In this document: positions 13,610 through 60,759 of the stretch, piece by piece | How positions within the stretch are numbered: position 1 is the first letter of the stretch | Layout of the letters: every line of letters starts with the position of its first letter | From: Bacteroidales bacterium | GTDB taxonomy: Bacteria > Bacteroidota > Bacteroidia > Bacteroidales > P3 | Direction: 5' to 3' | Assembly (NCBI GenBank): GCA_016283175.1 | Contig: JAEEMK010000046.1 | Coordinates: 1 to 64,000, forward strand | Length of the DNA stretch: 64,000 bases | Notes under the pieces: generated by a model | What the model saw: the letters and a program-made list of their open reading frames with translations, nothing else | The model's database searches: none | What the model was told of the DNA's origin: nothing | Position numbers and translations under genes: made by a program

Positions 13610-14584
13610 CTAATTTTTCTGTTTCCCGTACCATTCAAAAAAGTCGCGGATGGCATCGGCCAAAGGAGTGGTAGTGAAAGCCAGCTCGCGGCGTGCCTTG
13701 TCGCTGGTGTAGTATTCGTCCACCATCAGCTGACGGACATTGCGAGTGGACAGCTGTGTGCGTTTGCCTGCCCATCGCAGCAGGTCACCCAACCTGCCGG
13801 CCAAGGCCACAAGCCAGTCGGGCAACACAAAAAGCCTTTGACTATAGCCGCACACCTCGGCCTGAAGTGCATAGAAGTCGCGCAGACTCATATCCTCGCC
13901 AGTAAGAAGGTAGCGCTCGCCGTTGCGCCCCATCGTAAGGGCATTGACCACAGCGTTGGCCACGTCCTTGACGCTTACGAAACTCTTTCCACCTCCCGGA
14001 GCAGCCATCACAGAGCGTTTGAAAGCCGCCAGGAGCAACTTGCCCGACGATGGCTTGTAGTCATAGGGGCCAACCATAAAACCGGGATTTAGGATGACAA
14101 TATGGCGTTCCGGATGCTGCTGTGCTTCCCACGTCAATATTTTCTCGGCTTCAAGCTTGCTTTGCGCGTAAAACGACGATCTGAAGGGGGGCTTTATTTC
14201 GTCGCTCTCGGTGCCGGGACGGCCGGCAGTGCCGTAGCCTACAGTGTTGGCACTGCTGATGTGAACGTATGTGGCGATGTGCATCTCGCCCATAATCTCA
14301 AGAATGTATTCGACCACGACTTTGTTGACAGGCAGATAGTCGTCGTAGCGCAACAGCGACATATCGGTGGTGCCGGAGCAGTTGACAATGGCCTCGCACC
14401 CTTGTGCGGCAGTGCGCAAGGCGGCGACATCGAGCAGCGAGCCTTCGACAACAGTCAAAAGGCCGGCAGACGGCAGGCCAACCCTGTTGCGCACCAGAGC
14501 AACGACACTGTGGCCCCTGTTCAAAAGGCAGTCGAGGACATTGTGGCCCAGCAGGCCTGTAGCACCAAGCAGAAGAATCTTCAT
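13610..14584 (-). CDS. NAD-dependent epimerase/dehydratase (SDR family)
   Basis: MKILLLGATGLLGHNVLDCLLNRGHSVVALVRN Rossmann motif; YAQSKLEAEKI catalytic motif. Confidence 0.88.
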   Translation of the reverse strand: MKILLLGATGLLGHNVLDCLLNRGHSVVALVRNRVGLPSAGLLTVVEGSLLDVAALRTAAQGCEAIVNCSGTTDMSLLRYDDYLPVNKVVVEYILEIMGEMHIATYVHISSANTVGYGTAGRPGTESDEIKPPFRSSFYAQSKLEAEKILTWEAQQHPERHIVILNPGFMVGPYDYKPSSGKLLLAAFKRSVMAAPGGGKSFVSVKDVANAVVNALTMGRNGERYLLTGEDMSLRDFYALQAEVCGYSQRLFVLPDWLVALAGRLGDLLRWAGKRTQLSTRNVRQLMVDEYYTSDKARRELAFTTTPLADAIRDFFEWYGKQKN

Positions 14585-14694
14585 ATAGCGGCAAGGAATT
14601 TTTACATAATAACGAGAAAAAAAACTGCTGCGTATGTTCTAACCGTTATTTATTTTCCCCTCCCCTTCCCGACAAAAAAAACGCCACAAACATA

Positions 14695-14793
14695 GGCATA
14701 TGTACAGTACTTGTACAGTATATGTACAGTATATGTACGCTTCAGAAGCGTACAAATACTGTACATATACTGTACAAGTACTGTACATATGCC
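14695..14793. repeat. Palindromic intergenic element, copy A (49-bp arms, 1-nt centre, 11-bp-phased TGTACAGTA units)
   Basis: GGCATATGTACAGTACTTGTACAGTATATGTACAGTATATGTACGCTTC-A-GAAGCGTACAAATACTGTACATATACTGTACAAGTACTGTACATATGCC; arms complementary with 1 mismatch. Confidence 0.95.
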
Positions 14794-14929
14794 AGGGAAT
14801 GTATACAGAAAGCAGCGTTTTTAACGACAAAAGCAACATACGACACTCCACGAAACACAAACCTTCATAGAGCTCTGTTCTACAACACCATAGCCATCGA
14901 AATCATCATTGTACGTACAACAAAACAAA

Positions 14930-14957
14930 CAGGCGCCCCGCGAATGCGGGGCGCCTG
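14930..14957 (-). terminator. Intrinsic terminator for the OmpA-family gene
   Basis: CAGGCGCCCCGC-GAAT-GCGGGGCGCCTG, 12-bp perfect stem; minus-strand side followed by TTTGTTTTGTT. Confidence 0.8.
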
Positions 14958-14997
14958 CTGTGAATTGTTTTTATAAGAGAGTCTTTTGCTCCTAAGC

Positions 14998-16503
14998 TTA
15001 TTTCAGGACCACCGTTGCACGACGGTTCTTTGCGCGGTTTTCATCACTGTCGTTAGGAACAATGGGGTCTTCCTGACCACGGCTTTCGATGAGAATATTG
15101 GCAGCGGGAGCACCCAGACTGACCATATACTTCTTCAAAGCCTCGGCACGTTTCTTGCCGTATTTAAGGTTGATGGCCGCCGTGCCGGTATTGTCGGTAT
15201 GACCGGTGATTTCGGCCTTCAGGTTCTTGTCGGCCATCATCGACGCACAGAGAGTGCGGATAATATCGTCGGTCTTGGAATCGAACTTGGGAGTGGTGCC
15301 GCTGGTTTCGAAGTAGACCGTAGCGTTAATGTCGTCGAGACGTTTCTGCATCTCAATGCGTGTGACCGGCTTTGCGGGAATATTATTGATAAGCGAAGCT
15401 ATGCTGTCGAGTAGAGCCTGTTCGCGTGCAAGGGCTTCTGCTTCAGCTTTGGCACGGGCCAGACGTTCAGCCTGGGCACGAGCCTCGGCCTCGGCCTTTT
15501 CGCGAGCCAGACGCTCGGCTTCAGCTTTCTCACGAGCCAATCTTTCCTGAGCGGCACGAGCCTCGGCTTCTGCACGCTCACGTGCCAGACGCTCGGCCTC
15601 GGCTTTTTCGCGGGCAGCCTGTTCGGCAGCGAGAGCCTCAGCTTTGCGCTTGCCACCGAGCCATCCAAGATCAAGACCCAGTTTTAAGCCAGCACGCAGC
15701 AGATGCAGTCCGGCAATCTGATTGGAGGCAAAAGTGCCGTTGTAGGTCATCGAGGCATCGGGGGCGATATTGACAAGTGGTTCCTCGGTGTCGCCAGCCA
15801 TACTGTTCACGCTGCAGCCGGCATAGAGGCCGAAGTAAAGCCCCCAGTTGTTTTTCAGGCTCAGACGGTAGCCGAAATCTGCAATAACGCTCAAACCCAG
15901 CTTGAGGCCTTCAATCTTACCGTTAAATTCGTTGTCGTAGGTGTCAAAGCCATGATTGGGCATATCAGTGACCGTATGTCCTATCGAAGGGAAGTAACCA
16001 CCGGTAGTGAAGGTGCCGCCTCTGGAGGTGTATTTGCCGCCAAGCGGCAGGTCGGCCGATACACCGAGACCAGCGATAACGGTCCATTTCTCGTTGACAA
16101 CGTTACGCCAGAAGAACTCGACAGGAACACTCAGAATATTGACTGCCTGATGTTCTTTCCAGTTGTCGAATCTGGTATTCAAGTCGTAGGTTGCATTGGG
16201 GTTGTCGACGTGGGTCAATCCCGGGGTCACTTCGGTGAAATCGTAATGGGTTGTCGAGCCTGTGCGGTCAAAATGCAGACCGAAGCCAAGACCACAATTG
16301 TCATTGAAGAAATGGGTGTAATGCACACCGAAATCGACACCCAGTCCAAGATGATGCGTACCATTGGTGGGATTGCACAGCATAGTGTTCAATCCTGCTG
16401 CGGGATGAAGAGTGAATCCCATATAATTGTTGATTTCGCCATTCTGGGCCATAACAGAGAATGTCAGGGCGACTGCGGCGAACAATGTCATTATTCTTTT
16501 CAT
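14998..16503 (-). CDS. OmpA-family outer membrane protein with beta-barrel-like N-terminus and long charged Ala/Glu/Arg helix
   Basis: C-terminal ITGHTDNTGTAAINLKYGKKRAEALKKYMVSLGAPAANILIESRGQEDPI; internal AEAERLARERAEAEARAAQERLAREK... Confidence 0.88.
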   Translation of the reverse strand: MKRIMTLFAAVALTFSVMAQNGEINNYMGFTLHPAAGLNTMLCNPTNGTHHLGLGVDFGVHYTHFFNDNCGLGFGLHFDRTGSTTHYDFTEVTPGLTHVDNPNATYDLNTRFDNWKEHQAVNILSVPVEFFWRNVVNEKWTVIAGLGVSADLPLGGKYTSRGGTFTTGGYFPSIGHTVTDMPNHGFDTYDNEFNGKIEGLKLGLSVIADFGYRLSLKNNWGLYFGLYAGCSVNSMAGDTEEPLVNIAPDASMTYNGTFASNQIAGLHLLRAGLKLGLDLGWLGGKRKAEALAAEQAAREKAEAERLARERAEAEARAAQERLAREKAEAERLAREKAEAEARAQAERLARAKAEAEALAREQALLDSIASLINNIPAKPVTRIEMQKRLDDINATVYFETSGTTPKFDSKTDDIIRTLCASMMADKNLKAEITGHTDNTGTAAINLKYGKKRAEALKKYMVSLGAPAANILIESRGQEDPIVPNDSDENRAKNRRATVVLK

Positions 16504-18198: not shown

Positions 18199-21100
18199 TT
18201 ACTTCTTGACGACCTTGCGTACCGTCGTGCCGTTAGGCAGAGTGATACGCAGGGTGTAAGCGCCCTCGCCAAGGTTGGAGATGTCGAATGTATTAGTATT
18301 CTCGAAGGTGGCCACCAAACGACCAACGATGTCGAGAACCTCAACCTTGACCACTTCGTCGGCAGTAACGGTAACGCGACCGCGAGTCGGGTTCGGGTAG
18401 ATGGTAACATCGTCGAGCGAGTTGACAACGTCGATAGCCACAGGAGTGACATTCACGTGCAGGTAGACGGTGCTATCGCAACCGTTGACCGTAGTGCCAT
18501 TGAATACATAGTCGCCGCTAGCGGAGATGCTGTAGCTATTGTAGACATAAGGCAGTTCGGTTTCAAGCAGCGTGATTGTGTCGAAGGTCTCAACGCTGTG
18601 GTTGATGGTCAGGTTCAGAGTGATGGTGCTGTCGCAGCCATTGGAAGCAGTGAGAGTAACCGTCGGCGTGTTGGTGCTCTCGGTGTAGTTCACATTGTCA
18701 ATCCAGATGTAGCTGTCGCAAGCAGCAACCTCATCGATGATGTCATAGCTGTAGTTGACAGTCAAGTTGAGAGTCACAACGCTATCGCAGCCATTTGCAG
18801 CGGTCAGTGTGTAGGTCGGAGTGTTGGTCGAAGCCGTGTAGGTCTGGCCGTCAATCCAAGTGTAGCTGCCGCAAGCAGTCTGGTTGTCGATGCCCGTTGT
18901 GCTGCTGTTGATGGTGAGGTTGAGTGTCACGACACTGTCGCAGCCGAGTGCGTTGGTCAGCGTGTAGGTCGGAGTGTTGGTCGAAGCCGTGTAGGTCTGG
19001 CCGTCAATCCAAGTGTAGCTGTCGCAAGCAACGGCGTTGAATGTGCCGGTTGTAGAGCTATTGATCATCAGGGCGAGAGTAACAACGCTGTCGCAACCGC
19101 TGGCGGCGGTGTAGGTATGCGTGTAGTTACCGCTGGTGGTATAGGTGGTACCATTCCAGATGTAGCTGTCGCAAGCCGAAGCGGCAACCGTCATATTGAT
19201 GGTCGGAGTGATCGTCAAGTTGAGTGTGACGGTGCTGTCGCAACCAGCAACAGTGTTGAAGCTCTGCGTGTAGTTACCTGTGGTGGTGTAGGTAGCACCG
19301 TTCCAAGTGTAGCTGTCGCAAGCTGCAGCATTGATGGTTGTTGTTGCACTGTTGTTGACAACGAGAACCAGGGTGGCAATGCTGTCGCAACCGTTAGCAG
19401 CCGTAGCAGTGTGCGTGTAGGTGCCGCTGGTTGTGTAGGTCTGGCCATTCCAGGTGTAGCTGTCGCAAGCAGTAGCGTTGACAGTGTTGGTGATAGGATT
19501 GTTGATGATGAGCAACAGGTTGACAATACTGTCGCAGCCGTTGGCAGCAGTGAAGGTGCCACTGTAGATGCCGCTGGTCGTGTAGGTCTGACCGTTCCAA
19601 GTGTAGCTGTTGCAAGCTGTCTCGTTGATGGTGCTGGTAATAGCATCATTGATGGTCAGTGCCAAAGTTACAGTACTGTCGCAACCACCAGCAGAAGTGA
19701 AGTTCTGCGTGTAGGTGCCGCTGGTTGTGTAGGCTACATTGTTCCAAGTGTAGCTGCCGCAAGAGGTGGCGGTGATGGTGGTAGTCTGCGGAGTATTGAT
19801 GGTGAGGTTCATCGTCACAACACTGTCGCAGTTGTTGTCAGTCGAGAATGTTTGAGTGTAGCTGCCGCTCTCGGTGTAAGCAGTGCCATTCCAGATGAAG
19901 TAGTTGCAAGCAGCTGCATCGAAGCTGGAAGTAGCGCTGGTGCCAAGAGTGAGGACCAGAGTATCGGTGCTCTCGCAGTTGTTGGCAGCAACATAGTCAA
20001 ATGTGTAGGTACCGCCATCGGTGTAGGTCGTACCGTTCCAAGTGTAGCTGTCGCAAGCAGTAACGTTGTAGAGAGTGCTGGTGCTGTTGTTCACCGTGAG
20101 GTGGAGAGTATCAACACTCGGGCAACCGTTGTTGGCCTCATAGCTATAATAGTAGTCACCGGTCTCGTAGTAGGTCTCACCCATCCAGCTGTACTCGTCG
20201 CAAGCGATGATGGTACGCTGTTTGTTGCTGTTGTAGTTAACAGTCAGGTAGAGGGTGTCGACGCTCGGACAGCCGGCAGCAGAACTATAGTTGTAGTAGT
20301 AGGTGCCGCTGGTAGTGTAGTCGGTGCCGTTCCAAGTGTAGCTGTCGCAAGCAGTAACGGTCTCGCCGTTGTTGCTGTTGTAGTTGACAGTCAGGTGGAG
20401 GGTGTCGACGCTGGCGCAACCTGCTGCGGTGGTGTAGCTATAGGTGTAGTGACCGCTCTCGGTGTAAGTCTCGCCGTTCCAGATGTAGCTGTCGCAAACG
20501 GTCTCGGAGTAGACTGCATTGCTATTGTAGTTGACAGTCAGTCGGAGGGTATCGAGGCTAGCGCAACCGTCGGCGGTGTTGTACGGATAGTAGTATACAC
20601 CAGTCGAAGTGTAGGTCTGGCCGTTCCATTCATAGCTGTCGCAAGCGGTGACGGTCTCCATACTGCTGCTGTTGTAGTTGACAGTCAGGTGGAGGGTGTC
20701 GACGCTGGCGCAAGCATCAGCGGTGTAGTAGCTATAGGTGTAGTCGCCGCTGGTGGTGTAGGTCTGACCGTTCCAGGTGTAGCTGTCGCAAGCAGTAGCT
20801 TCATAAGCAGTGTTGCTATTGTAGTTGACAGTCAGGTGGAGGGTATCGACGCTGGCGCAGCCGTCGGCGTTGTTATAATTATAGGTGTAGTCACCGCTGG
20901 TGGTGTAGACAGTGCCGTTCCAGGTGTAGCTGTCGCAAGCAGTAGCAGCGTAAGCCGTATTGCTATTGTAGTTGACAGTCAGGTGGAGAGTGTCGACGCT
21001 GTTGCAACCCTCGTTGGTGCTATAATCATAGGTGTAGTCGCCACTGGTGGTGTAGACTGTACCGTTCCACTCATAACTGTCGCAAGCAGTAGCGGTGTAA

Positions 21101-24100
21101 GCCGTACTGGTGTTGTTGTTGATAGTCAGGTGGAGAGTGTCGGTGCTAGCGCAGCCGTTCACATCGGTGTAGTCGAAGGTGTAGTCACCGGTAGCATCGT
21201 ATGCGGTGCCATTCCAAGTATAGGTGTCGCAAGCGGTAGCGTTGAAGCCTGTGCTGCTATTGTTGTTGATAGTCAGCTCGAGGACGTCGACGCTGGTGCA
21301 ACCCATATTGTTGGCATATGCAAGCGAGTTGTAAGTACCGCTGGTGGTGAAGTTGTAGGTCTCACCGTCGCCGGCATTCCAAGTGTAGCTGTCGCAAGCA
21401 GTAACCTCGACTGCATCGTTGTAGATGACGTCACCAACGGTGATAGTCAGCTTGGTGGTGCTGTCGCAGCCTGTCAGTACAGAAGGAACTGTGTTGGTGA
21501 AGGTGTGAGTACCAGCTGTGAGCTCGTCGGCAGCGATAACAAAGCCATTGGCGTTGTAATCCTGACCGAGGCATACAGCATCGGTAAGTTCAACTTCAAT
21601 CAACGGATTGACAGTAAGAGTGAAGTGGATAGTGCTGTCGCAGTTGCTGTTGAACTCAGTCGTGATAGCGGTGTCACCGGCAGCGGTGAACTCAATACCA
21701 CGCCAGTTGTACGGCAATGCGTCGGCGCAAATGGTGGCAGTCTCGTAAGCGTGAGGAGCCTCGTTGACAGTCAAGCGCAGGAAGACTACGCTGTCGCACA
21801 TCGTTCTCGGGTTAATGAGAGAGGTCGAAGTCTCGATGCTCTGCTCAAAGACACCGATGATGCTGTCGCCGACAATCCAGGTGTAAGGACCGCAGTTCTC
21901 GACAGTCTGAACAGCATAGGTGGTCTGGTTGTTGATAGTCAGGTGGAGGGTGTCGACGCTCGGGCAGCCATCCTCATTGGTGTAGCTGTAGGTCTTGACT
22001 CCGCTGGTGCTGTAGTCGGTACCGTGCCAGTTGTAGGCGTGGCAAGCGACGACGGTCTCGGCGTTGTTGGTGGTGTAACCAACAGTGAGGTCGAGTTTGC
22101 ACTGAGCGTAGCAACCGTTGGCATCGGTGCTGTCGAATGTGTAGATACCAGTCTCAGTGTAGGTCTGGCCATTGATAGCCCAAGTGTAGGTGTCGCAGAC
22201 AATCTCTGTGATTTCGCTACCATTGTTCTTGTTGATGGTCAGGTAGAGGGTATCGACGCTCGGGCAGCCATTCTCAGCATCATAGCTGTAGTAAGCGGTG
22301 GTGCTTGCAGTGTAGATGCTGTCGTGCCAAGTGTAGCTGTCGCAGGCAACCTTGGTTTCGCCACTGTTGCTGTTGTAGTTGACAGTGAGGAAGAGGCTAT
22401 CAACGCTGGCACAGCCATCAGTAGTATTGTAAGCATAGCTGTAATGGCCAGTGGTGTTGTAGGTGGTACTGTTCCAAGTGTAGCTGTCGCAAGCCGTCAC
22501 CGTGTAGATGGTGTCGCTCTTGTAGTTGACAGTCAAGTGGAGAGTATCAACGCTCGGGCAGCCGTTGGTGGCGGTGTAAGCGCGAGTGTAGTCACCAGAG
22601 GTGGTATAGGTCTGGTTGTTGAGACCCCAAGTGTAGCTGTCGCAAGCCGTAACGTCATAGCCAGTGTTGCTGTTGTACTTGACAGTCAGGTTGAGAGTCA
22701 CAGTACTGTCGCAGCCGTAGCTGGAGCCGTTCGGGAAGAAGCGAGTAGCTGTCGTGGTGCTCTCGGTGAAGAGTGTACCGTTCCATCTCAAGCTGTCGCA
22801 AACGGTGCGGCGCTCGGTGGCGTAGACGACCGGGTGGACAGTGAGTGTCTTGGCATATACCCACTCGTTGTTGGCATCGCCCTTGAAGACGGTATCGGTC
22901 AGCGTGATGGTGGTCACGTGGTCGAAGTCGGTAATCATCGTGGTGAGGTCGAAGGTATTGCTGTGACCACCAAGGATATTGGTGTTATCCCAAGTGTATT
23001 CCTCAGCGGTAGCACAGATATCTTCGGTACCGATGTTGGTGTAGTTGTCAACGAGAGTGATGTGGTAGGTGATAACGCTGTCGCAATAGTGTGTTGTAGC
23101 ACCGAAGTGGAAGGCAGTGTCAACTGTACCAGCCTCAGCACCGCTGAAGTTGATAGAGTAGGCTGCACTGCTGTCGCTGGTGAGGAAGCACTGCTGCTGG
23201 CTCAACAGGAAGCTTACATTCTGCTCGGTGTAGTTGATCTGAGTCAGGGTCAAGTTGAGTACTGCGATGGTGTCGAAGCCGTTGTAGCTGATGACGCCAG
23301 GCAGCGTGTAGCGCGGACGGGCATATACCCATTCGTCGGCGGTAGCATCGTAGTAGAGTGCACCGTCAGGAGCATTGTCGCGATACTCATAAGTGTGACC
23401 GTTGATCCAAGTGAAGTGGTCGCAGACAACCTGATTCTCCATACCGATAGCGTTGGTACCGACCAAGAGATGCAGCAGCGTGGTGCTGTCGCAACCGGCG
23501 ACGTTCAAGCCACTGGGAACCGTGAATATGGTGTCGAAGTATTCGCCACCGTCGCGGTCAGCGGTATAGAGGATGTTGTCGTAGACATAGAAACCATTGT
23601 TCGAGACAATCTCATCGTTACCAGTGGTAGCGTGGTTGATGGTCAGGTAGAGCATATCGGTGCTCGGGCAACCATCACCATTGATGTAGTTGCTGGTGTA
23701 GATGCCGCTTTCAGTCTTGGTAATGGTGTTGCCATTGTTAATCCAAGTGTAGCTGTCGCATTCTGCCACGGTGAAGGTCTCGGCCGAGCTCTGGTGCAGA
23801 GTCAGCTTCAAGGTATCGACACTCGGGCAGTTCTGACCATTGACATACTCGTGGGTGATTGTCATCGGGTAGGTTGCGTTAGTATCATACATATAGTTCA
23901 TACCAGAGGTGGTCCACACATAGTTGTCGCAAGCGTCGGTGACGGTTGTGATATTGTGGGTAGCGTGGTTGATCGTCAGGTTGAGAGTTACAACGCTGTC
24001 GCAACCAGCCATATTCTGGATGGTGTGCTGTGCTGTGTAGTTGTTGATGGTGTAGAGGATACCGTCAATCCAACGCAGGCTGTCGCAAGCGACGACCTCG

Positions 24101-27100
24101 TCGATGCCAGTGTTGCTGGTGTTGACAGTGAGTTTCAGCGTATCAACAGCCTCGCAAGTGTTGGCATCAGTGCGAGTGAAGGTATGGATACCACTGGTGG
24201 TATAGGTCATACCGTCGCCGTCAGTCCACGTGAAGGTGTTGCATACAACAGTGTCAAGAACAACAGGCATATTCTTGTTGATGGTCAGATGCAGCGTCAC
24301 AGTGCTGTCGCAATTAGCGGCGTTGGTGAACACGTGAGTAGCTGCCTCTGTGCTGGCAGTGTAAGTTGTACCGTACCAGACAAAGCTGTCGCAAGCCACA
24401 GCGGTGGTGTCACCGGTGGTGGCATTGTTGATGGTCAGGTGCAGTGTCACTGTGCTGTCGCAACCAGCGGCATTGGTGAACACGTGTGTCAGGCTGTCGC
24501 TGCTGCCGGTGAGGGCAGTGTGCTCGTACCAGTCGAAGCTTCCACAAGCCACAGCGGTGGTGTCACCGGTGGTGCTGTTCTTGATGGTCAGGTTCAGCGT
24601 AACGGTGCTGTCGCAGCCGTTGACATCGGTGAACACGTGAGTCAAGTTGTTGCTGCTGGTCGTGAGGCCAGTGTGCTCATACCAGTCGAAGCTGTCGCAA
24701 GCCACAGCGGTGGTGTCGCCGGTAACGGCAGCAGCCTGGTTGACGACCAAAGTCTGCAACCAGCCATTGGTAGCAACAGTATCGAAGATATAGGTCGTAT
24801 CGGTAACCGTGGTAACATAGGTATGAGTACCCCAATCAACCGAAGTCTGGTTAGCGCAGATGTCAATTCTAGCGGTATCGTAGTTGTAGATGAGGTTGAT
24901 GTTGTAGGTCACCAAGCTGTCGCAGTAGAGGTCGCTCGGGAAGTGAACCTCGCGCTGTACGGTCTCAGTGTAACCTATGTAGCCGGCAGCCTTCTGTGCA
25001 CTGAAGTCAAAGACACTGTCGCCAAGGGCGAGGGTGATGTTGCTCAGCAGGAAGGTAGTGTCGGCAGTGCTGGTGGTGCGCTCGGTGAGGACAAGCTGCA
25101 GGATGAAGGTGCTGTCGATAGCATTATTGTTGGTAATGGTAACGATAGGTGCTTCATAGATGTATGTACCTGTGCTGGTCTTGTAGAGAGCTCCATTGTT
25201 GGCAGCACTTTCAGTAGCATCAATGAACTCATAGGTAACGTTGTTACGCGGCCAAGTGTATTCCTGGCAAGCTACGACGACCTCGGTCTTGTTGCGGGTG
25301 GTACCGACAAGGAAGTTGAAGGTAATCACGCTGTCGCAACCGGCGACGTTGGTGATGGTAGCTGTCAGAGGACCGAAAGCGGTCGGAGTGTTGGCCTGGA
25401 ACAATGTGTCGTAAGTCACATCGTTGCCCACAAAGTTGAACTGGTAGAAACCTTCGCTGCTGACTATCGTAGTGTCATAGCTGTTGCTGTGGTTGATAGT
25501 CAGGTAGAGGGTGTCGACGCTCGGGCAGTTGTTGGCAGCGTTGTAAGCGTTGTAGTAGGTACCGCTTACAGTCGTGGTCATCGTGTCACCGTTGTTAATC
25601 CAAGTGTAGGTGTTGCAAGCGGCGACGGTCTCAGCCCTGTTGCTGTTGTAGTTGACAGTCAGGTTGAGGGTCACGATGCTGTCGCAAAGGGCCACGTTCT
25701 GGATAGTGTCGACATAGCTGCCGGTGGCAGTGTAGGTCTCATTGTTAATTGCCCAGGTATAGGTGTCGCAAACAGTAACTGCAAAGGTGCTGTCGGTTCT
25801 GTGACGTACAGTCAGGTTGAGGGTGATGGTGCTGTCGCAGCCGGCGAAGCTCTGGTAGACAACGCTGTCCACAGTGCTCTCAGTGTAGGTCACACCATTC
25901 TCAGTCCAAGTGTAGCTGTCGCAGACATTCTCGGTAACTGTTGCGTTACCGGCAGTGCCGATGGTCAGGCGGAGGGTATCCACGCTGGCGCAGCCGTTGG
26001 CAGCGTTGTAAGCGTAGGTGTACTCACCTGTAGCAGTGTAAGCAGAATCGTGCCAAGTGTAGCTGTCGCAGGCAATAGCGGTGTCAGCGCTGTTGGTGTT
26101 GTAGTTGACAGTCAGGTAGAGAGTGTCGACGCTCGGGCAGTTCTCTGCAGTGAGATAATTGCTGTAGTACGTGCCGCTCTCGGTCTTGGTAACGGTATTG
26201 CCGTTGTTGACCCAGGTGTAAGTGTCGCAAGCTGTGACAGTCTCGCCGCTGTTAGTGTTGTTGAACACGGTCAGCTTCAAGGTGTCGGCAGCAGGACAGT
26301 TGTTGGTGTCAGTGTAATCATAGACATAAACACCGCTCACATTATATGTCAAGTTGTCGCGATCCCAAGTGTAGGTGTCGCAAGCTGTGTCGACAAATAC
26401 GGTGCGGATGGGCTGGTTGATGGTGTAGCTGACAATGGTGTCGTTACCCATCGGGTCGTTGTTGCTGTAGGTGTTGCTTATCGGGCCGGTGATAGTGAAG
26501 CCATATTCGGTCTCGTAAGGCAGTTCACTGTAGCAAAGAACGATCGGGTTCAGCTTGGTGAAGAACATATGTATGGTACTGTCGCAGCCGTTCTTGTCGG
26601 TAAGCGTGTAGAAAGCCTCACCAGTGGCGGTGTACTCAACACCGTCAATCCAAGTGTAAGGATCGTTGGTAGCAACATACACATCGGTCAGCGGGTTCTG
26701 GTTGACATAGAAGTTGGTGACAACAACTGTGTCGGGAGCATCGTTCGATGCAGCGGCCAGAAGCTCGGTGAAGCTCTTGTCCTCACGATAGACCTCACCG
26801 TCAGGTCCCTTGTAGCTGGTGCAGACAGTGGTGTCATAGACAATGTAGGCAGTGTCTATCAGAGTCAGGTTCATCGTTACGACGCTGTCGCAACCATACT
26901 GGTTAACACCAATGACTGCGTTGTCAGTGTAGACACCTGCGTTGTCGTAGGTCACACCATTCCAAGTGTAGCTGTAAAGGACAGTGGTGTCAAATACGCT
27001 GTTGGTAGTGGGATTGACCGTGTAGTTGACGGTGACCGTGCGAGCGCATCCGTTCTCGGTGGCCCAGTTGGCAACAGCGCTGCCATTGTAGACTACACCG

Positions 27101-30100
27101 TTGAGGGCTGTAGCGAAGGTCAGGTCAACAGTCTCGGTAGTATTATCCTCGTTGACGTAGGTGTAGTGGTAAGCACTGTCGGCCCCAAGTTCGAACTCTT
27201 TCTCGCAAAGGATAATATCCTTTTCCTCAGTCGAGGTCGGGAAGACCGTGAGGGTGAGGATGTCGGTCGAGTCGCAGCCATTGGCATTGGCAACGCCGGT
27301 AGCCAGGCGATAGGTCTCAGTACCGGCAACGGTCGGAGTAATCGTAGTGGCACCAAAGGTGTAGGTCTCACCAAGGCAAACCTGGTCGTCAACATAGTTG
27401 TAAGTCTGAGCCTTGGCACCGGTCAGACGCAGCACCTCGGTACGGTCGCAGCCGTTCTCGGCCTGGGCGAAGGTAAGCGAGATGTTGGTGTCGGCACCGG
27501 TGAAGATGTCATTGATAACAGCAATAACGTTGCTATCGGCATCATACCAAGTGTACGGCAGACACTTGTTGCGTTCGATTTTGGTGTGGTACTCGCTGGT
27601 GTTGATAGTCACATTGTAGCGGCTTACAACATAGCGACCGTTGCCGATGGAAGTCTTCAGCTGATAAGCACCGCTCTGGTTGATCTGGCATTCCACGAGG
27701 CTGCCGTCGCAAGCAACGGTGTCGAGGATCAAGATGTCGCAGACATTGGTGTCGGCCCAAGCCAAAGTATCGGCAGCCAGGTTGAACACGAGGTTGAGAA
27801 TCTGGGTGCTGTCGCAGCCGTACTGGTTGGTGACACCATTCAGCAGATAGCGGACATTACCGTCAGTCTCGTTCATATCGTATTCAACACCGTTGATCCA
27901 GGTATAGGTCGGCGTGTTGCACCAACGGATATCGTCAACACCGGTGTTGGCATAGTTCACAGTGAGGTTGAGGGTCACGAGGCTGTCGCAACCGGCAACG
28001 TTCTCAATGGTGTACTGTGCTGTGGTGTTGTTCTCGGTATAGGTGTTGCCGTCAATCCAGACAAGCTGGTCGCAGACGGTCTGTACATCGGTACCGGTGG
28101 TCGAGGCACGGAGAGTGAGGTTCATCGTGACCACACTGTCGCAACCGTCGATGGTCTGCAGAGTCTTGTCGTAGCTGCCGGCGGCAGTGTATTCGACCTC
28201 GTTCCAGGTGTAGCTGTCGCAATCGTTGGCCTCGAAGCTGCTAACCTTCTTGGGGTTGACAGTGAGGTAGAGGTTGTACAGCACTGGGCAGACATCGGTG
28301 GTGGTATCGGTGTAGTTCAGCGAGGTGACATTGAGGTCAGCGGTGTGGCTGGTCTGATACTGACCCTGGCCGAAGGTGAATTCATCGCCCTCGCAGTAGG
28401 TGCGGTAAGCGTTGGCAACACCGGTGGCGGTGACATCGAGATACAGGTGGACAGTACTGTCGCAACCGTAACCGATGGTCCAGGTCTGGTTATAATTGCC
28501 ACCTTGGACATCGCTCAAAGTCTGAGCGCCCCAAGTGACGGGGAGCATAGCCTCACATACAGATAATGTATCATTAATATTATAAGCAGGACGCACGGTG
28601 ACGGTTGCCGAGGTAAACTCGTTGACGCAGCCGTTGGCGTCGGTGACTGTCAGGTTGTAACGACCAGTGTTGGCAGGCACGAAGCTTACGGCAGAAGTGG
28701 TGGCGCCATTCAGGCTCGTCCAGTTGTAGTTGTAACCGTCAACCTCGGTAGCCGTGAGAGTCAGGCTGTCGTAACGGCAGATCTCGTTGGCCGAAGGAGT
28801 GATAGTGACAACAGGCAGCTGGTTGACCGTAATGGTGGCCGAAGCCGTGGTGGTGCAAGCGCTGGCGTTGGGAGTGGTAGCGGTGACAGTATACTCTGTC
28901 GTGGTGGTCGGGCTTACAGTGATGCTGTTGCCAGTCTCGTTGTTGCTCCAGAGGAAGGTGCAGCCAGTGTTGTTGGTGTCGGTAACCGTGAGGGTGGTAG
29001 AACCACCGACGCAAATAGCCTCTTCAGTTACAGCAATAGTAAGTGCGGCAACCGGAGTGGTGGTGACATCCAGTGTGACAGGCAAGCTGGGGCAGTTGTA
29101 AGTCGGGTCGTAAGCGGTAACGGCATAGCTGGCGTTCTCGTGCGGATTGACGGTGCGGACAGCAGCGGTGCTGTTGTCTTCCCACTTGAAGTTCGAACCT
29201 TCGATGGTGGCGCGGGCCGTCATCACCAGATCGGCGTTGTCGCAGAAAGCGTCGATGGTACCGTTGGTACGCTCATTGTTGACATAGATGTAAGCTGTCG
29301 GGGCGGGACGCACCTGCAGCGTCAGCGTCGTGGTACTGTCGGCACCGTTGACGGTCTGGGCTGTGCGGGTGTAGACGCCCGTAGCGGTCAGTGTGTCGCC
29401 ATAGAACACATAGCTCTCGCGCTGGCAGAGTTCCTGGCGTGCGGTAAGAGTATAGGTAGGATGGATAGTCAGCTGCAGGGTGTGGTACACAGAGTCGCAG
29501 CCACCTACGTTCTTCTCCATAAACTCTTCGCTCCAGGTCTTGTCGGACTGGTTGGCGACAGTGACATTGTTGGTATAGGTACGGCCGTTGACCCAAGTGA
29601 AGGCGGTGTTGGTGTCGACCACCCAGTCGCGCTGCGGAGCGGCAACGGGGCACTCGCACTGTGCCAACAGTTTGAAGCCAAGATACTGGTCGGCATTGTC
29701 GACATCAGTGGTGAAGACAATGGTCATAGCACCCTTGGTAGACCAGTCGTAGCTGTCGGTCTTGACATCGATGCTCTCGTCATAACCGGTACCTGTGTAG
29801 AGGACATTGCCAGTAGTTCCGACACCCTCATAGATGGTCAGGTAGTCGAAGCCATATTCGCAGTCCATCTTGCCGGTCAGGTGGAGAATCTTACCAGCCT
29901 CGCCAGGATAGATGGTCTGAACCATATTGACATTGCCTGCATAGGTACCCTGATGGTTGACGGTGTCAGCCATATAGAATACAACGCAGTTGTTTGTCGG
30001 CTCATCGGTGGGCATATAGACTATAGGCTCGCGGAGCTTCACCTGGACATTCTTGACATAGAAGTCGGCCCAGGTGGTACCGGTCTGCAGACCACGGATG

Positions 30101-33100
30101 GCAATGTAGCGGCCAGTGGTGTTGTTGATATCGGCAAACGAGATATTGAATGTATTGTACTCAGGACTGTTGAGAGTAATGGTCTGTACAGCGGTAAAGG
30201 TAGTGGTATCCGTACCGTTGGCAAGATAACCAACCTGGAAGCTGCGTTCGGTTGTGCCGCTGTAGTTGGCAGCCTCAAGGCTCATCTCGATGGTGTCGAG
30301 AGCGAAGCCCATCTCAGGCAGGATAACCATACTCTTGGTGCTGTAGATATTAATTCTGTTGTTAGCTGCATTGACAGATGCAGTACCGCCAGCCTTGGTC
30401 CAGCAAGCGGGCAGGCCAGAGACCGAGAAGGTCTGTACGAGCGGCATATCGGCATACTGCCAAGGAGCGCACGAGGTGCTGAAGTTGGCAGCAGTGCTCC
30501 ATAGGCTCCAGTCTTCGTCCGAGCAGAGCGAACGGACATAGACCTGATAAGCGGTGGAGTGTTTCAGACCATTGACAACAAAGTTGGTGTTCTGAGTGGC
30601 GATAACGTGTATACCGTCGATGTTCTGGTTGAAGCCAGGCTCGCCGACGGCAACCTCCCACTGGGTGGCACCGACAGGCATTGTGTTCTCTGTCCAGCTC
30701 AAGGTCACGCTGTTGGCAGAAGCCACAGGAGCACCTAAGGTAGGAGCCACACAGGTAGCCATCGTGGTGAAGTTGGCAACATTGCTCCAGTCGGCGGTGT
30801 CTCCGTTGTAGTTGGCGGCAGCAACGCAGATGCTGCGAACCTTCCACTGATAAGCCGTTTCGGGGAGCAGGTTGGCAAGAGCCAGAGCAGGAGCACCGGT
30901 CACCTCAACGCTGACGCCCTCGTTGTCGAGGTCGGCAGCAGCAGGAGCGTAGCGCACCTCCCAAGCGGCGGGAGTAACAAGACAGTTATCAGTCCAGGTC
31001 AGGTTGGCAGTCTTGGCATATACATTCTCCGAGGTGAGGTTGGTAGCCACACGGCAAGTAGGAACAGGCATAACCTCGATGTCGTCGACATACCAATACC
31101 ACGAGGTAGAGCCAGCATTGTGACGCATAGCCATACGGGCACCGACAGGAGCAGCATCCATATACACAGTCTTCTCTTCGTGTGTATTAGATGTCCAGTC
31201 ATTGTGGTTATAAGTGGCAATAGCTACAAAAGTAGAAGCGTCTTCAGCGTCGGTCACATAACCAACAGAAAAAGATCCACAACTGGTATTTGAATAACTT
31301 TCAGGACGAGTCCAGAAGTTCAGTTGCAATGTGTTGGCTTCATTCTCAGTTTCTGGCAGAAGCACCAAATTGCTCAACGAACCGCTGAATCTGAGATAAT
31401 AGCTACTGTTGTGTGCATTACTAGTACTGCTTAAGACAGCTACAGTACCCGTACCTACCTTGGTCCAACAATCAGGCAGGTTATTGGTTGCTGTGCTTTC
31501 AAAATCTTCAGTGTAGTGATTGTACTTGGTAACAGCTATAGGAGCACACGGAGTAGTGAAAGTATAGACAATGCTCCAGTCGCTATAACCGTCAGCACCG
31601 CAGTTGGCGCGGACATAGAAGTCGTAGGTTGTCTGCTCATCGAGGGCCGTTGTGGTGAACACGTGGTCGGTCAGAGTAGTGACGGTTGCAGTGGTAACAT
31701 CCAGCGGGCTTTCGCCGAACATCACATCCCAGCTTCCCTCGGTAGCGTTGGTGCTGTTCTGTGTCCAATCGATAGTAGCGGCATTGGATGACAATGCTGT
31801 GGTGTGGACATTGCTCGGTTTGACGCAAGGAGGCAGCAAGCTGACCTTGATATCATCGACATAGGCATAAGTGGAGTTGGTAGTACCGTCAGCCGGTGCC
31901 AAGATGGCCAAGCGGCCTGGAGTACCTGTGAAGTTGTTCAGCGGAATCTCGAAAGTCGTCCACGGATACGGTGAAGCAACATATTCGGGCTGTACTTGCT
32001 GAATCAACTGGAATGTGCTGATATCATTGGGATCAGTCATCACACCAATCTGAATTTTGCCATAATTGACACTCGATGAAGTCCTCAAAACCTTCAACGA
32101 AATCTGCAAATCGGTCAAAGAATTAGTGAAGGTCGGCAACACTGCATAACTATAATTGGTATTGTATCCATACATATATAGGCAGTAGCTGTTGGTCGGA
32201 GTCAACGGGTTGCTATTGTTGGCAACATAAGAAGTACTTGGATAGGGATAAGCTGTTGTGGAGCTGGTGTGTTTCTCCCAGCAAACGTTAATCTGATGAG
32301 CGCTTCCGCTTCCTGTGGCATCCTCAAATCCATAGATGTAAGGCTCGGCCATCGTCACAGTGATAGGATTACACAGGGTGGTGAAGGTGAAGGCATTACT
32401 CCATTCGCTCTCACCGAAGGAACCGCAGTCAACGCCTACATATACATAATATAATGTAGCATCGTTAAGATTTGTGAGGTTAATGCTCTGTGACAAAACC
32501 GTAGTGGCAGTTCCCTCGGTAGCCGGGTCGATAGCAGTGGTGCTATATTTAACCTTCCAAGCTACCGGGGTATTAGTGTTCTGGTCAACCCAACTAACAG
32601 TAGCACTGGTAGGAGTTACATTGGTAGCTGTCATTGTGCTTACCTGAGGAGCAAAGCAGTTGGGGATAACCTTTACTCGGATATTGTCGATACCGCAGTA
32701 GGTCTGAGAGTAACTACTAGTACTGGTTCCATTGTGGGTTCCCGAGTAGCGAAAGGCCAGACGGGCATCAGCAGGAGCCGAAGCAGCCAATGTGGCAAGC
32801 GACATATCGGTAATATGCTGTAAAGTAGTAGTAGCATTCCAGGACTGCATCGTCTGGAACGTGGCAAAATCATTGTCTGTAATGTAACCAAGTTCAAGGA
32901 CCGTTGCCACACCCGATGCACTATAAGTGTTGCCCATCTTATAGTCGAAAGAGACCATAACGTTGTTCAGCGGCTGGTCGAACAGCGGCATTACAGCAAT
33001 TTTAGTGTCACCACGGTTGTTGTGGTAATTAATATAAGTAGAACTTGTCACAGCAGATCCTATCACATAGGCTGGCAGGAAGAGGTATGGGTTGTTGGCC

Positions 33101-36100
33101 ACTAAACAAGCATATGAAGAGTTAGAAGTATATTGAACCACACCACCATAGTAACTGGAGCTTGTGGTAGCAGCAGTGTACGCGCCATTGGAATAGTAGT
33201 TCCAACAGCTAGGTGCTACAGAAGGACCATTATAAGGATAGGTGGGCAAACCCGTGTATCCACTAAAGTCCTCGGCATACGGCAGAGCCTGAGTGGCACC
33301 GCAGGGAGTACGGAAGGTTGCATTAGTCCACTGTAAGGTGTCGTCAACACCGCAGATGGAGCGGATACCGATAGAATAGCTGGTATTGTCAAGCAGACCT
33401 GAAGGTGTATAGCTGGCAGAATTGACAATTGCATAGGTATAACTGTTGCTACCTGCAGGGGCCAAGCGTACCTGCCACTGAGTGGCGTTGCCAGCCGTCC
33501 AGGTAACAGTACCAGCGCTGTATGCTATATCTGCAGGAGCGTTGCAACTCATTCTCGTCACAGAAATATTGTCGATAGTGGCAGGAGGATTGGTACCGCT
33601 GGAATTATCGTTGCGCCACACAAAGACAAGCTTGTAGTTGCCCGGAGTGGAGATATTGACAGTACGGCTTACCGAATTCCACGAACTGCTCAAATTGAGT
33701 TTGCTGCCACCATCTACGGCAATCCAGGTCGAAGGAGTTGCCGTGGTACTCAAACCTGAAGGCAACGAGGTACCAGGGGTAAGGGTGACAGATTCAGGAA
33801 CCAAAGCAACGCGTAAATAGTCGTAGGTAGACTCACCATAGCACTTCCAGTCATAGGAAATGTTATAGTCGGCAGCTATGGTCATAGGCAGTGTTACATA
33901 TGCATAGACAACTGAACTGGAGGACTTGTTATAGTCAGCCGAAGTACCACTATTGTTAGAAATATAGATACTATGATTGCCGCCAGTGGTATTGTTGTCG
34001 GCAGTACCCAAATACCATTTGTTGGTCAAGGAACCGTTGGCAAAAACAAAACCGTTAACACCATTCTCAAAGTCGCATAAGTAAGGTATTGCAACAGGAA
34101 CGGTATACGACAGCGGAGCAACCCAATCAAGGGTGTCGCCTTCACCGCAGATGGAGCGGACAGAAACATTATAGGTAGTACCTGCACCACCGGTGAGAGG
34201 CAGAGTGTAAGATGCCGTAGTCACAACATTCGATACCGTGTAAACGTCACTACCATCTTCTGCCCAACGAACCTGCCACTGGGTGGCATTGCCGGGAGTC
34301 CAAGTAAGAACCTTGCTGGGGCTAATAGCCAAGTCGGTAGGTCTGACACAAGCGGGAGCTTTTCCGATAACCACTTGGTCTATACCAACGCCATAGCCAT
34401 AGCTGTCGGTCATCTCAAAGGCTATCTGATAAGTTGACGAAGTATTGGGAAGAGGAATGGATTCCTCTAATGTCCAAGTAGCAACTGCATCAGTAAACAC
34501 CTGAGAAGGAATCAGAGTCCAGGCTGCAGTCGGCGAGGTACGATAGTATACTCTCAGCTCGTCGATATCACCGCCCCAAGCACGCGAAATATGCCAATAT
34601 GAGAGAACATAGTCGCCTGTAGCGAAATTGAATGTCGGGCTGATAAGTTTTGTGACATTACCACTAGTAGTATGGGTAATCTTTGCGTTCTGGCTACCAA
34701 TTGCAGCACCAGTAGTGGCACTATAATCACCTGTTCCTGTACTCCACGAAGCATCACCTTCAATAGACCAGCAGGTAATGCTTTCGCTATTTTCCTCGAA
34801 GGTCTCGGTGAAAGATGCAGTCTGTGTTACGGCAATAGCCATACACGGAGTAGTGAAACTATAAGTATTCCAATCTAACGTATCACCTTCACCGCAAATA
34901 GAACGGATACCGATGGTGTAAGAGGTATTGGACATCCAAGACGATGAACTATAGCTAGGAGTGGACACGTAAGCATAGGTGTAGTTGTCGCTACCATCCT
35001 GAGCCCAGCGAACCTGCCACTGGGTAGTGTTGCCAGCAGTCCAAACCACAGCGCCATTCACGTCAAGGGTAACATTGGTAGGCATACTGCAGTTGAGTTT
35101 CTTGACCGACACATTGTCGATTGCTGCAGGAGGATTGGTTCCGTCACTACCGTCATTGCGCCACACGAAAACCAACTTGTAATCACCTGTAGTGGCAATA
35201 GTTGCAGTCATTGCAACCGATGTCCAACTGCTATTAACGTTAAGTTGGGCACCGTTATCAAGTGCAATCCAGCCTGAAGGCGTACCTGTGGTGCTGATGC
35301 CAGAATAGAGAGTACCTGCGGTAAACTCGGCGGAAGCCGGAGCAAGGAAGACACGCAAATAATCGTATCCGCTCTCACCATAACATTTCCAGTCATATTT
35401 CACAACATAGTCACCGGTCGTTGCAAACGGTAACGTTGCATAAGCATACGAAACCGAAGCATCATAGTTATCGTAGTCATTGCTTACACCTTCATCGCTG
35501 GAGATATACATAGCATTGCTACCACCATTGTTAGCGGCAGAACCGACATACCAGCCATTGCCACTATTGGCGAAAGTAAAACCACCAGCTCCATTTTCAA
35601 AGTTGTTGCTATAGGGCAACGATAATGGAGTAACGAAGCTGACAGGACCAACCCAATCAAGCTGCTCGCTGCCGCAGATGGCGCGAACATAGGCTTCATA
35701 GCCAGTAGCACTTTCAAATGTGGAAATAACACCACCATTTGTTATGGTCACCGGTGTTGCGGCATCGGGGTCAAAGTTAGGAGCACCATAAACCAACTGA
35801 TAGGCGGTAGAGGTGTTGTGGCTGTCGGTGAAGGTGAACTTGACAGAAGTCAAGCCCGTCACTTGAGCCTGCAGATTGCTGATGGGGAAGCAGGTAGGCT
35901 GCGGCTTGACGGTAATCTCGTCAATGAAGAAGTCCCAATAGCTGCTGCTCTGGCTCCATCTCAAGGCGAGGCGCGCTCCGGAGGGGATGGCGGCATAGTC
36001 AGTGAGATAGAAGGAGAGATTCTGAGGAGTTGTGGTGAATCCCTCGAGAGTGTCGAGGACCACAAAGCCAGACATATTGTTGATATTGGTGAAATAGCCA

Positions 36101-37332: not shown

Positions 37333-37786
37333 TGTGCGTTTTTTTTGGTTAATAATTAATTGAACTATGAATTGAATTTTTTTGTTTTTGTCTTCTTAAT
37401 ATTTTATATATTTAACATTTCAAACATCTCTACAAACAGTACTTTTCCCCCTTTGCGGCCAGGGAAAAGAAAAAAAACATATCACTCCGCGTTTCTGCGC
37501 TCCTCGCGCCACAGAAATGCAAACCGATTTCAAAGATATAATAGTAAATGAGTTATGCGAATGTCGGCTCCCGCCGTCGCTGTAGTTTCAAAGTATTTGA
37601 TACTGGCTGCAAAAATATGAAAATTTTTCATAATACCAAAATTTTTTTTGCATAGGCACCTTTCCGCCATCCAATCCCGTCAACTGATTTTAACAATTCG
37701 GCCACCTGCTTTTCGTCGCCGGCAGTGACCCGACCACCCCCACCCGACCACCTCGGGTCACACATCATCCCCCCCCTACCAGCATA

Positions 37787-37874
37787 GGCATATGTACAGT
37801 ATTTGTACAGTATATGTACAGTATTTGTACGCTTCAGAAGCGTACAAATACTGTACATATACTGTACATATGCC
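37787..37874. repeat. Palindromic intergenic element, copy B (49-bp left arm, 38-bp right arm lacking exactly one 11-bp unit)
   Basis: GGCATATGTACAGTATTTGTACAGTATATGTACAGTATTTGTACGCTTC-A-GAAGCGTACAAATACTGTACATATACTGTACATATGCC. Confidence 0.95.
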
Positions 37875-38073
37875 AGGGAATGTTTACAGAAAGTAACGTC
37901 TAGGCAACGGAAGAGAAGAAGGGAAACACCGTGAAACACAGAACGACACAACATACTGATTCCAGGGTGATTGAGGTCGGAAAACCGGTCTGATGAGGGA
38001 AGGTTGTGCCGTTGGTGCTCCCTTGTGGGCACAGAGTGCGGTGAAGACAGTGAGGGGAACAGTGCGGGAAACA

Positions 38074-60239: not shown

Positions 60240-60380
60240 AGCATATCGTTTTTTGTGACCTTACGTCGGGGAAAAGCATCATCCCGGACATCAATCAACT
60301 GATTACTTGAAAATTAAGCAGCTCCACGTTTCAAAATGCACCTTGATGTCCTTTGACTGTGCAAAGCATATACCAACACT

Positions 60381-60479
60381 GGCACTTGTACAGTACTTGT
60401 ACAGTATATGTACAGTATATGTACGCTTCTAAAGCGTACATATACTGTACAAGTACTGTACATATACTGTACATATGCC
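60381..60479. repeat. Palindromic intergenic element, copy C (99 bp, 11-bp-phased TGTACAGTA units)
   Basis: GGCACTTGTACAGTACTTGTACAGTATATGTACAGTATATGTACGCTTCTAAAGCGTACATATACTGTACAAGTACTGTACATATACTGTACATATGCC. Confidence 0.95.
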
Positions 60480-60759
60480 AGGGAAAGTGTATCGAAAAGA
60501 ACGTTTAGAGCATAAAAAAATGGATATGAAACATTATAATTGACGAAACATCGTAACGTCGAAAAAAAACCGTCTGCTTCACCACAGCATAGCACACACT
60601 GTTTTTTAGTTTTATTTTCAACGGAAAAGACAAAACCGAAAAAAAATTCAGATATCCAAAAAAAGTATCAACCAGCACTTTACAGCCTCAGATAGGGTTT
60701 TCCCAGAAAAAACCGGAAAATTAGGTTGCCTGTTCGGGTTTTACTTGTGAATGTGTCGG

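Follow-up and report, generated by a model that had tools for sequence, protein, structure and literature searches.

A dispersed family of palindromes built from 11-bp-phased units in one genus of Bacteroidales

What could account for a long, nearly perfect palindrome between two genes of a Bacteroidales bacterium, and does it belong to any known class of repeats? The palindrome, copy A, occupies positions 14695–14793 of the window, the whole stretch of 64,000 nucleotides that was analysed. Arm alignment delineates two arms of 49 nt each (14695–14743 and 14745–14793), which are 98% complementary and separated by 1 nt, in agreement with the first-pass annotation, which had described a 49-bp inverted repeat with a single mismatch around a central A. 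Reading inwards, the arm is composed of GGCATA, three copies of TGTACAGTANN and TGTACGCTTC, followed by the central A and the mirror image of the arm. Together with short flanks the palindrome is predicted to fold very stably, with −51.9 kcal/mol (z = −15.8) for single-stranded DNA and −78.9 kcal/mol (z = −15.4) for RNA. What is repeated extends beyond the palindrome: conserved ends belong to it, and so does a repeated flank of up to approximately 85 bp, on one side or on both. Alignment of the flanks of all copies assigns to copy A an F1-type flank at 14794–14875 (outer limit approximate), with AGGGAATGTATACAGAAAGCAGCGTTTTT in the outward reading, and on the other side a simple end, ACAAACATA, at 14685–14694 (compare the consensus TACCAGCATAGGCATA), with unique sequence beyond.

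Gene coordinates place copy A next to the 3′ end of an OmpA-domain gene (14998–16503, minus strand) and the 5′ end of an epimerase gene (13610–14584, minus strand), and the T-tract is absent, both as initially annotated. A strong hairpin between genes would be compatible with an intrinsic bidirectional transcription terminator, but the missing T-tract and the avoidance of convergent regions by the family, described below, make this explanation scarcely credible. The more specific proposal that copy A terminates the OmpA-domain gene was rejected, as that gene is followed by a terminator-like hairpin of its own with a T-rich tail, located outside the element (14928–14959, minus strand), and copy A has no T run. 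For copy A a terminator role is excluded.

The palindrome is not alone. The window contains 17 occurrences of the unit TGTACAGTA, where 0.55 would be expected and none of 100 shuffles reached the observed number. They fall into three elements, of which copy A bears out the 11-bp phasing of units first reported for it. Copy B has a palindromic core at 37787–37874 with three units on the left and two on the right, one being missing, a simple end at 37777–37786 with TACCAGCATA before GGCATA, and an F1-type flank at 37875–37955 (outer limit approximate). Copy C has a core of 3+3 units at 60381–60479 with GGCACT as its left end, and is flanked by repeated sequence on both sides, of the F2 type at 60300–60380 on the GCAAAGCATATACCAACACT side and of the F1 type at 60480–60560 (both outer limits approximate). 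Elsewhere in the window, one very long open reading frame (18199–37332, minus strand) encodes 6377 aa rich in internal repeats, and its C-terminal tail resembles a type IX secretion sorting signal.

In the complete set of 111 contigs of the own genome (G000, 2.25 Mb, the window being contig C61), the 11-bp-phased unit pattern has 187 forward and 182 reverse matches, while the reversed control has none. A longer, four-unit pattern recognizes 88 forward and 86 reverse arms, which corresponds to approximately 90 elements or roughly one per 25 kb, and the dozens of intergenic copies that had been anticipated are thus indeed present. About 80 elements, accounting for 153 of the 187 forward unit matches, were retrieved for study. 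The geometry is largely fixed, with exactly 3+3 units in 66 of 82 copies. Each arm of this form has three 11-bp-phased 9-bp sites and an inner half-copy, so that eight GTAC-centred sites point in about the same direction around the helix. Outside the array lie mirror-image ends of approximately 16 bp that start with TACC (TACCAGCATAGGCATA in G000 and TACCAACWCYGGTCGT in the related genome G100). At simple ends the conservation stops there, while other ends run on into repeated flanks of approximately 45–85 bp, which in G000 fall into classes F1, F2, F3 and F4. The usual pairing of F1 or F4 on one side with F2, F3 or a simple end on the other gives the element a polarity, and F2 is turned to the upstream gene's 3′ end in 11 of the 12 cases found in tandem gene pairs (p = 0.006, with no correction for the number of flank types inspected). 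Other short hairpin repeats adjoin the element, namely GCACAAGGCTTCTCCACGCGCTCCACAGGAGCTTGTGC in G000 (flanks of L144 and L165; F3 module) and GCAGGCAGGGATGCCTGC in G100 (flanks of L247, L266 and L274). Direct TGTTTCAC repeats are found within the F1 flank, for example on the left side of L211, and are presumably similar to one half of parS, the site of ParB.

Positions were read in register from the palindrome centre, so that the units were not selected on. The nine unit positions are 93–99% conserved over 156 arms in G000, with spacer positions down to 65–97%; in 59 left arms of G100 the unit positions reach 97–100% and the spacers fall as low as 47%. Within species the 9-bp unit is accordingly 93–100% invariant and the 2-bp spacers 47–98%. 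Recent copying alone would keep the spacers equally constant, and the contrast therefore argues for constraint on a recognized word. It matches what would be expected of protein-contact sites and lends weight to the original reading of the palindrome as an array for a DNA-binding protein, although part of it might stem from mutation, or from an RNA under weak constraint.

The latter possibility deserves consideration, since the first-pass annotation also proposed a long structured RNA. The hairpin might be transcribed as a 5′ leader or small RNA that acts through its double-stranded stem, with 11 bp corresponding to the A-form repeat. The very stable RNA fold is in line with such a role, as are a palindrome in the genome G054 that follows a promoter-like box, TATCTTTG, and precedes a start codon, and the correlation between the arms of a copy at three of four variable fields. 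The constraint, however, is on the word and not on pairing, and at the spacer s2 the arms match each other at the chance level (46 observed, 46.1 expected). Both orientations relative to genes occur. In Rfam no family scored above threshold, four copies giving only sub-threshold matches to microRNA hairpin models, and a known RNA family was rejected on this basis. The long-RNA option has been neither borne out nor refuted, and an RNA function appears improbable.

The placement of the elements is biased. Genes were called on draft MAGs from codon usage by a simple procedure, and by these calls every G000 copy examined is intergenic; most are upstream of genes. Their contexts are 33 divergent, 39 tandem and 2 convergent, against 21, 46 and 14 among the other intergenic regions of at least 150 bp in the same stretches, so that divergent regions are enriched (p = 0.018) and convergent ones depleted (p = 0.003). 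The bias is stronger when weighted by intergenic bp (divergent P = 6e-8, convergent 1e-5), with a background that omits the element-bearing regions. In G100 the corresponding figures are 28/17/4 against 9/26/4, with divergent regions likewise enriched (p = 0.002), no significant effect for convergent ones, and two copies overlapping a called ORF. REPs are usually found at the 3′ ends of genes, and the upstream placement seen here is the opposite. Transcription leaves negative supercoils on the upstream side of genes, and the elements thus lie where cruciform extrusion would be favoured. The adjacent genes, as named from sequence, are of mixed housekeeping function (among them gyrB, groES, mraZ, thyA, panC and leuS) and form no regulon.

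Beyond its own genome, the family has been encountered in a single genus so far. A search of 190 genomes of the family recovered arrays resembling TGTACAGTA in 8, every one a member of the own genus, and looser patterns matched 20 of the 120 genomes of the genus, some of these by lone chance-like or direct-repeat matches. The same geometry with other units occurs in roughly 14–20 of the 120 species, with approximately 100 lacking it, and elsewhere in the order, in a sample of 393 genomes that counts the own genus in, only direct tandem arrays and stray matches turned up. The carriers include the ruminant-gut Bacteroidales MAGs RGIG2655 (goat omasum) and RGIG6188 (sheep rectum). With copies near 90 in one genome and relatives that carry the family, the element is clearly more than three isolated repeats, and its patchy occurrence and variable copy number in the genus agree with the MITE-like nature that had been considered from the beginning. 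A plasmid or phage origin was also considered and rejected: plasmids and phages gave no match, and the single IMG/VR match is a direct 11-bp tandem array and not a palindrome, consisting of five direct GTACAAGTACC copies between genes of a phage-like contig (L366, 10876–10920). Long direct tandem arrays of 11-bp TATGTGCTCTA or TATGTACTCTA are likewise present in AT-rich intergenic DNA of G243, from another family of the order, at several loci per genome (L089, about 1480–1590; L101, about 1445–1590).

Each species or group of species has its own unit: TGTACAGTA in G000 and G017, TGTACAATA in G100 and G112, TGTACGGTA or TGTACGCTA in G025 and G045, TTGTACTATCG in G096, TTGTACGATAC in G094 and G074, TTGTCCCATTG in G054, TTGTTCAGTCG in G028 and TTGTCCGTTAG in G084. 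Common to all of them is the form TTGTNCNNTNN, repeated every 11 bp and mirrored. G100 and G112 additionally have a second class of unit, TTGTCCAGTYG (38 forward and 43 reverse arms in G100), the geometry, ends and flank type of which are those of the first class, indicating that one chassis carries different words.

All genomes compared are MAGs, and some of the counts bear traces of this. In G100 (L246–L303), G112 (L437–L456) and G096 the right arms, in terms of the contig strand, are cut off far more often than the left; the loss in G100 is independent of element orientation and is therefore taken as an artefact, and the right arms in all three genomes were probably damaged by assembly. Two contigs are probably mis-binned or reflect recent transfer, given the high DNA identity between genomes of different species: G000:C33:4089 (L458) is 98.9% identical to a G100 locus (L472) over 2.2 kb, and G069:C9 (L065) is 97.6% identical to another (L250) over 2.9 kb. 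Copy numbers, which range across the genus from 0 in approximately 100 species up to approximately 90, are consequently approximate, and the palindromes in turn account for some of the contig breaks in these MAGs.

Comparison of loci between species bears on whether the elements move or are kept in place by the host. In G100 and G112, which are about 87–92% identical around the loci, the element has the same position in six of seven comparable loci. At two of these (L253/L441 and L268/L444) both arms have GGTCGT in G100 and GTCCGT in G112, and L441 of G112 has an additional change mirrored on both arms. Small as this evidence is, it points directly to species-wide change of copies that stay where they are. 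Between G000 and G100, 19 of 58 sites are upstream of the same gene, with the occupied regions making up a large share of all suitable ones. At these shared sites the distances of the element are uncorrelated (rho 0.26), the flanks are rarely alignable, and the polarity is opposite in seven and the same in three of ten decidable cases. Orthologous retention was rejected on these grounds as the general cause of the sharing, and most of the shared sites are better read as independent insertions into a limited set of much-occupied regions. The upstream region of tex may be an exception in the form of an old shared copy, as G000, G100, G025 and G045 all have an element there, and the flank facing tex has a similar motif. 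Upstream of gyrB an element is present in G000, G100 and G112, whereas G025, G077 and G027 have none. Close species thus retain copies in place while more distant ones mostly do not, and the combination of occupied and empty sites with local retention implies a family that spreads and then stays. The spread is well supported, even though no target duplication was found and the candidate empty region in G112 did not align.

Alternatively, the palindromes might be arrays with a function for the host, bound between promoters by a nucleoid-associated, insulator-like or global regulatory protein and kept by selection and not by self-spread. One copy per approximately 25 kb, the fixed architecture, the unit-level constraint and the enrichment between divergent promoters would all suit such a role, as would the positions kept between G100 and G112 and the occupation upstream of tex in four species. 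Yet about 100 of the 120 species of the genus do without the element, its neighbours form no regulon, and many shared regions look independently inserted; this explanation is therefore regarded as unlikely, if the most serious of the alternatives.

If the elements are mobile, what moves them? No transposase or autonomous element with these ends was seen in the sequence stretches read. The first-pass annotation had listed a REP/BIME-like element with a cognate RAYT among its options, that is, movement by an IS200/IS605-like tyrosine transposase. The elements are palindromic, dispersed and intergenic, and RAYT-type Y1_Tnp genes occur in 73 of the 120 genomes of the genus, G000 included. However, none of the seven RAYT loci inspected (in G000, G100, G043, G112 and G120) has a copy within 500 bp on either side, no RAYT match was obtained for the element-rich G045, and G096 is absent among the matching genomes listed. 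Several RAYT genes (L228, L258, L299 and L305) are surrounded by other short palindromic repeats, including CCCCTACGGGG and GCCTCGAAGAGGC, that are unrelated to the element. Considering also the avoidance of convergent regions, arms far longer than REPs of 20–40 bp and the missing GTAG or CGTC foot, the option fails in size, end sequence and context, and is highly improbable.

How such long palindromes are tolerated is a related matter; a homologue of SbcD is present in G000, G100, G112, G025 and G043, and a missing SbcD hence does not account for the tolerance in those genomes. As to a protein that might read the units, some congeners encode Fic proteins with a C-terminal Fic-like_C domain that have a direct GTACAAGTACC array in their own gene just before this domain (L415, L410, L420 and L422, each near base 1500, in G051, G020, G084 or neighbours, and G091). 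The unit in these genes resembles those of the palindromes, which makes the Fic-like_C proteins candidate readers, as a lead and nothing more.

On balance, we lean towards the view that the palindrome is a non-autonomous mobile element similar to MITEs or REPINs, the arms of which are phased arrays of sites for a putative co-evolving protein. The chassis would consist of two mirror-image ends enclosing the array, most often extended on one side or both by a repeated flank, and would spread into upstream intergenic regions through an enzyme acting in trans. The constancy of the sites within species beside freer spacers suggests a sequence-specific protein that would read the 9-bp sites, being either the mobilizing enzyme or another DNA-binding protein. 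The word would change between lineages together with its reader, conversion or re-insertion would keep the copies alike, and in supercoiled DNA the palindromes may form cruciforms. A bolder version is possible but doubtful: one mobile chassis would carry interchangeable, helically phased word arrays, and as a dedicated DNA-binding protein co-evolved, the word would be exchanged along with it at dozens of loci across the genome, in part without the copies moving, giving each species private protein-docking sites between promoters. About ten species form a natural series here, the multi-copy DNA recognition word differing between them on a fixed geometry, which allows the predicted reader to be sought directly. 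The family also bears on the concerted evolution of dispersed repeats as well as on bacterial tolerance of approximately 90 near-perfect 100-bp palindromes.

Of the known systems, MITEs are likewise short, non-coding, multi-copy, intergenic inverted-repeat elements of patchy occurrence (PMC10969869). Terminal inverted repeats are evident here as the 49-bp arms and the mirrored ends out to TACC, the difference being that a single near-perfect palindrome of phased 11-bp units takes up nearly all of the element. The literature on 11-bp repeats, MITEs and REPINs in Bacteroidales yielded only work on Porphyromonas gingivalis, where the BrickBuilt MITE consists of tandem direct 23-nt repeats (AGAYCATARTATCCTCTCRTRTG) in variable number and is present in 19 copies (PMC4596501). 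It shares with our element the order Bacteroidales, a strictly intergenic location, a repeat array within an inverted-repeat element and an association with assembly gaps, whereas the palindromes have mirrored 11-bp units in fixed number, approximately 90 copies and an unrelated sequence, with no tandem direct 23-nt repeat bounded by leader and tail. REPs are palindromes of 20–40 bp that lie beside RAYT genes and have one end marked by GTAG or CGTC (PMC3733652). REP, BIME and REPIN elements resemble ours as dispersed extragenic palindromes with modular flanks and species-specific sequences; here the elements are approximately 100–125 bp long with arms of 49–60 bp, end in GGCATA, GGTCGT or similar, have no RAYT link and lie upstream of genes. 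Neither the REP/RAYT features nor the direct-repeat structure of BrickBuilt were found, and the initial failure to recognize a described family holds; the palindrome family appears to be new, and membership of any described family is not established. Transposon ends such as those of Tn7 likewise contain several copies of a short transposase site near each inverted end; their sites are longer and the ends flank genes, whereas here the two ends are fused into one palindrome, and the comparison serves as a working analogy only. The best reading of the sequence comparisons is that the element works like a MITE or REPIN with arms that are predicted protein-binding arrays.
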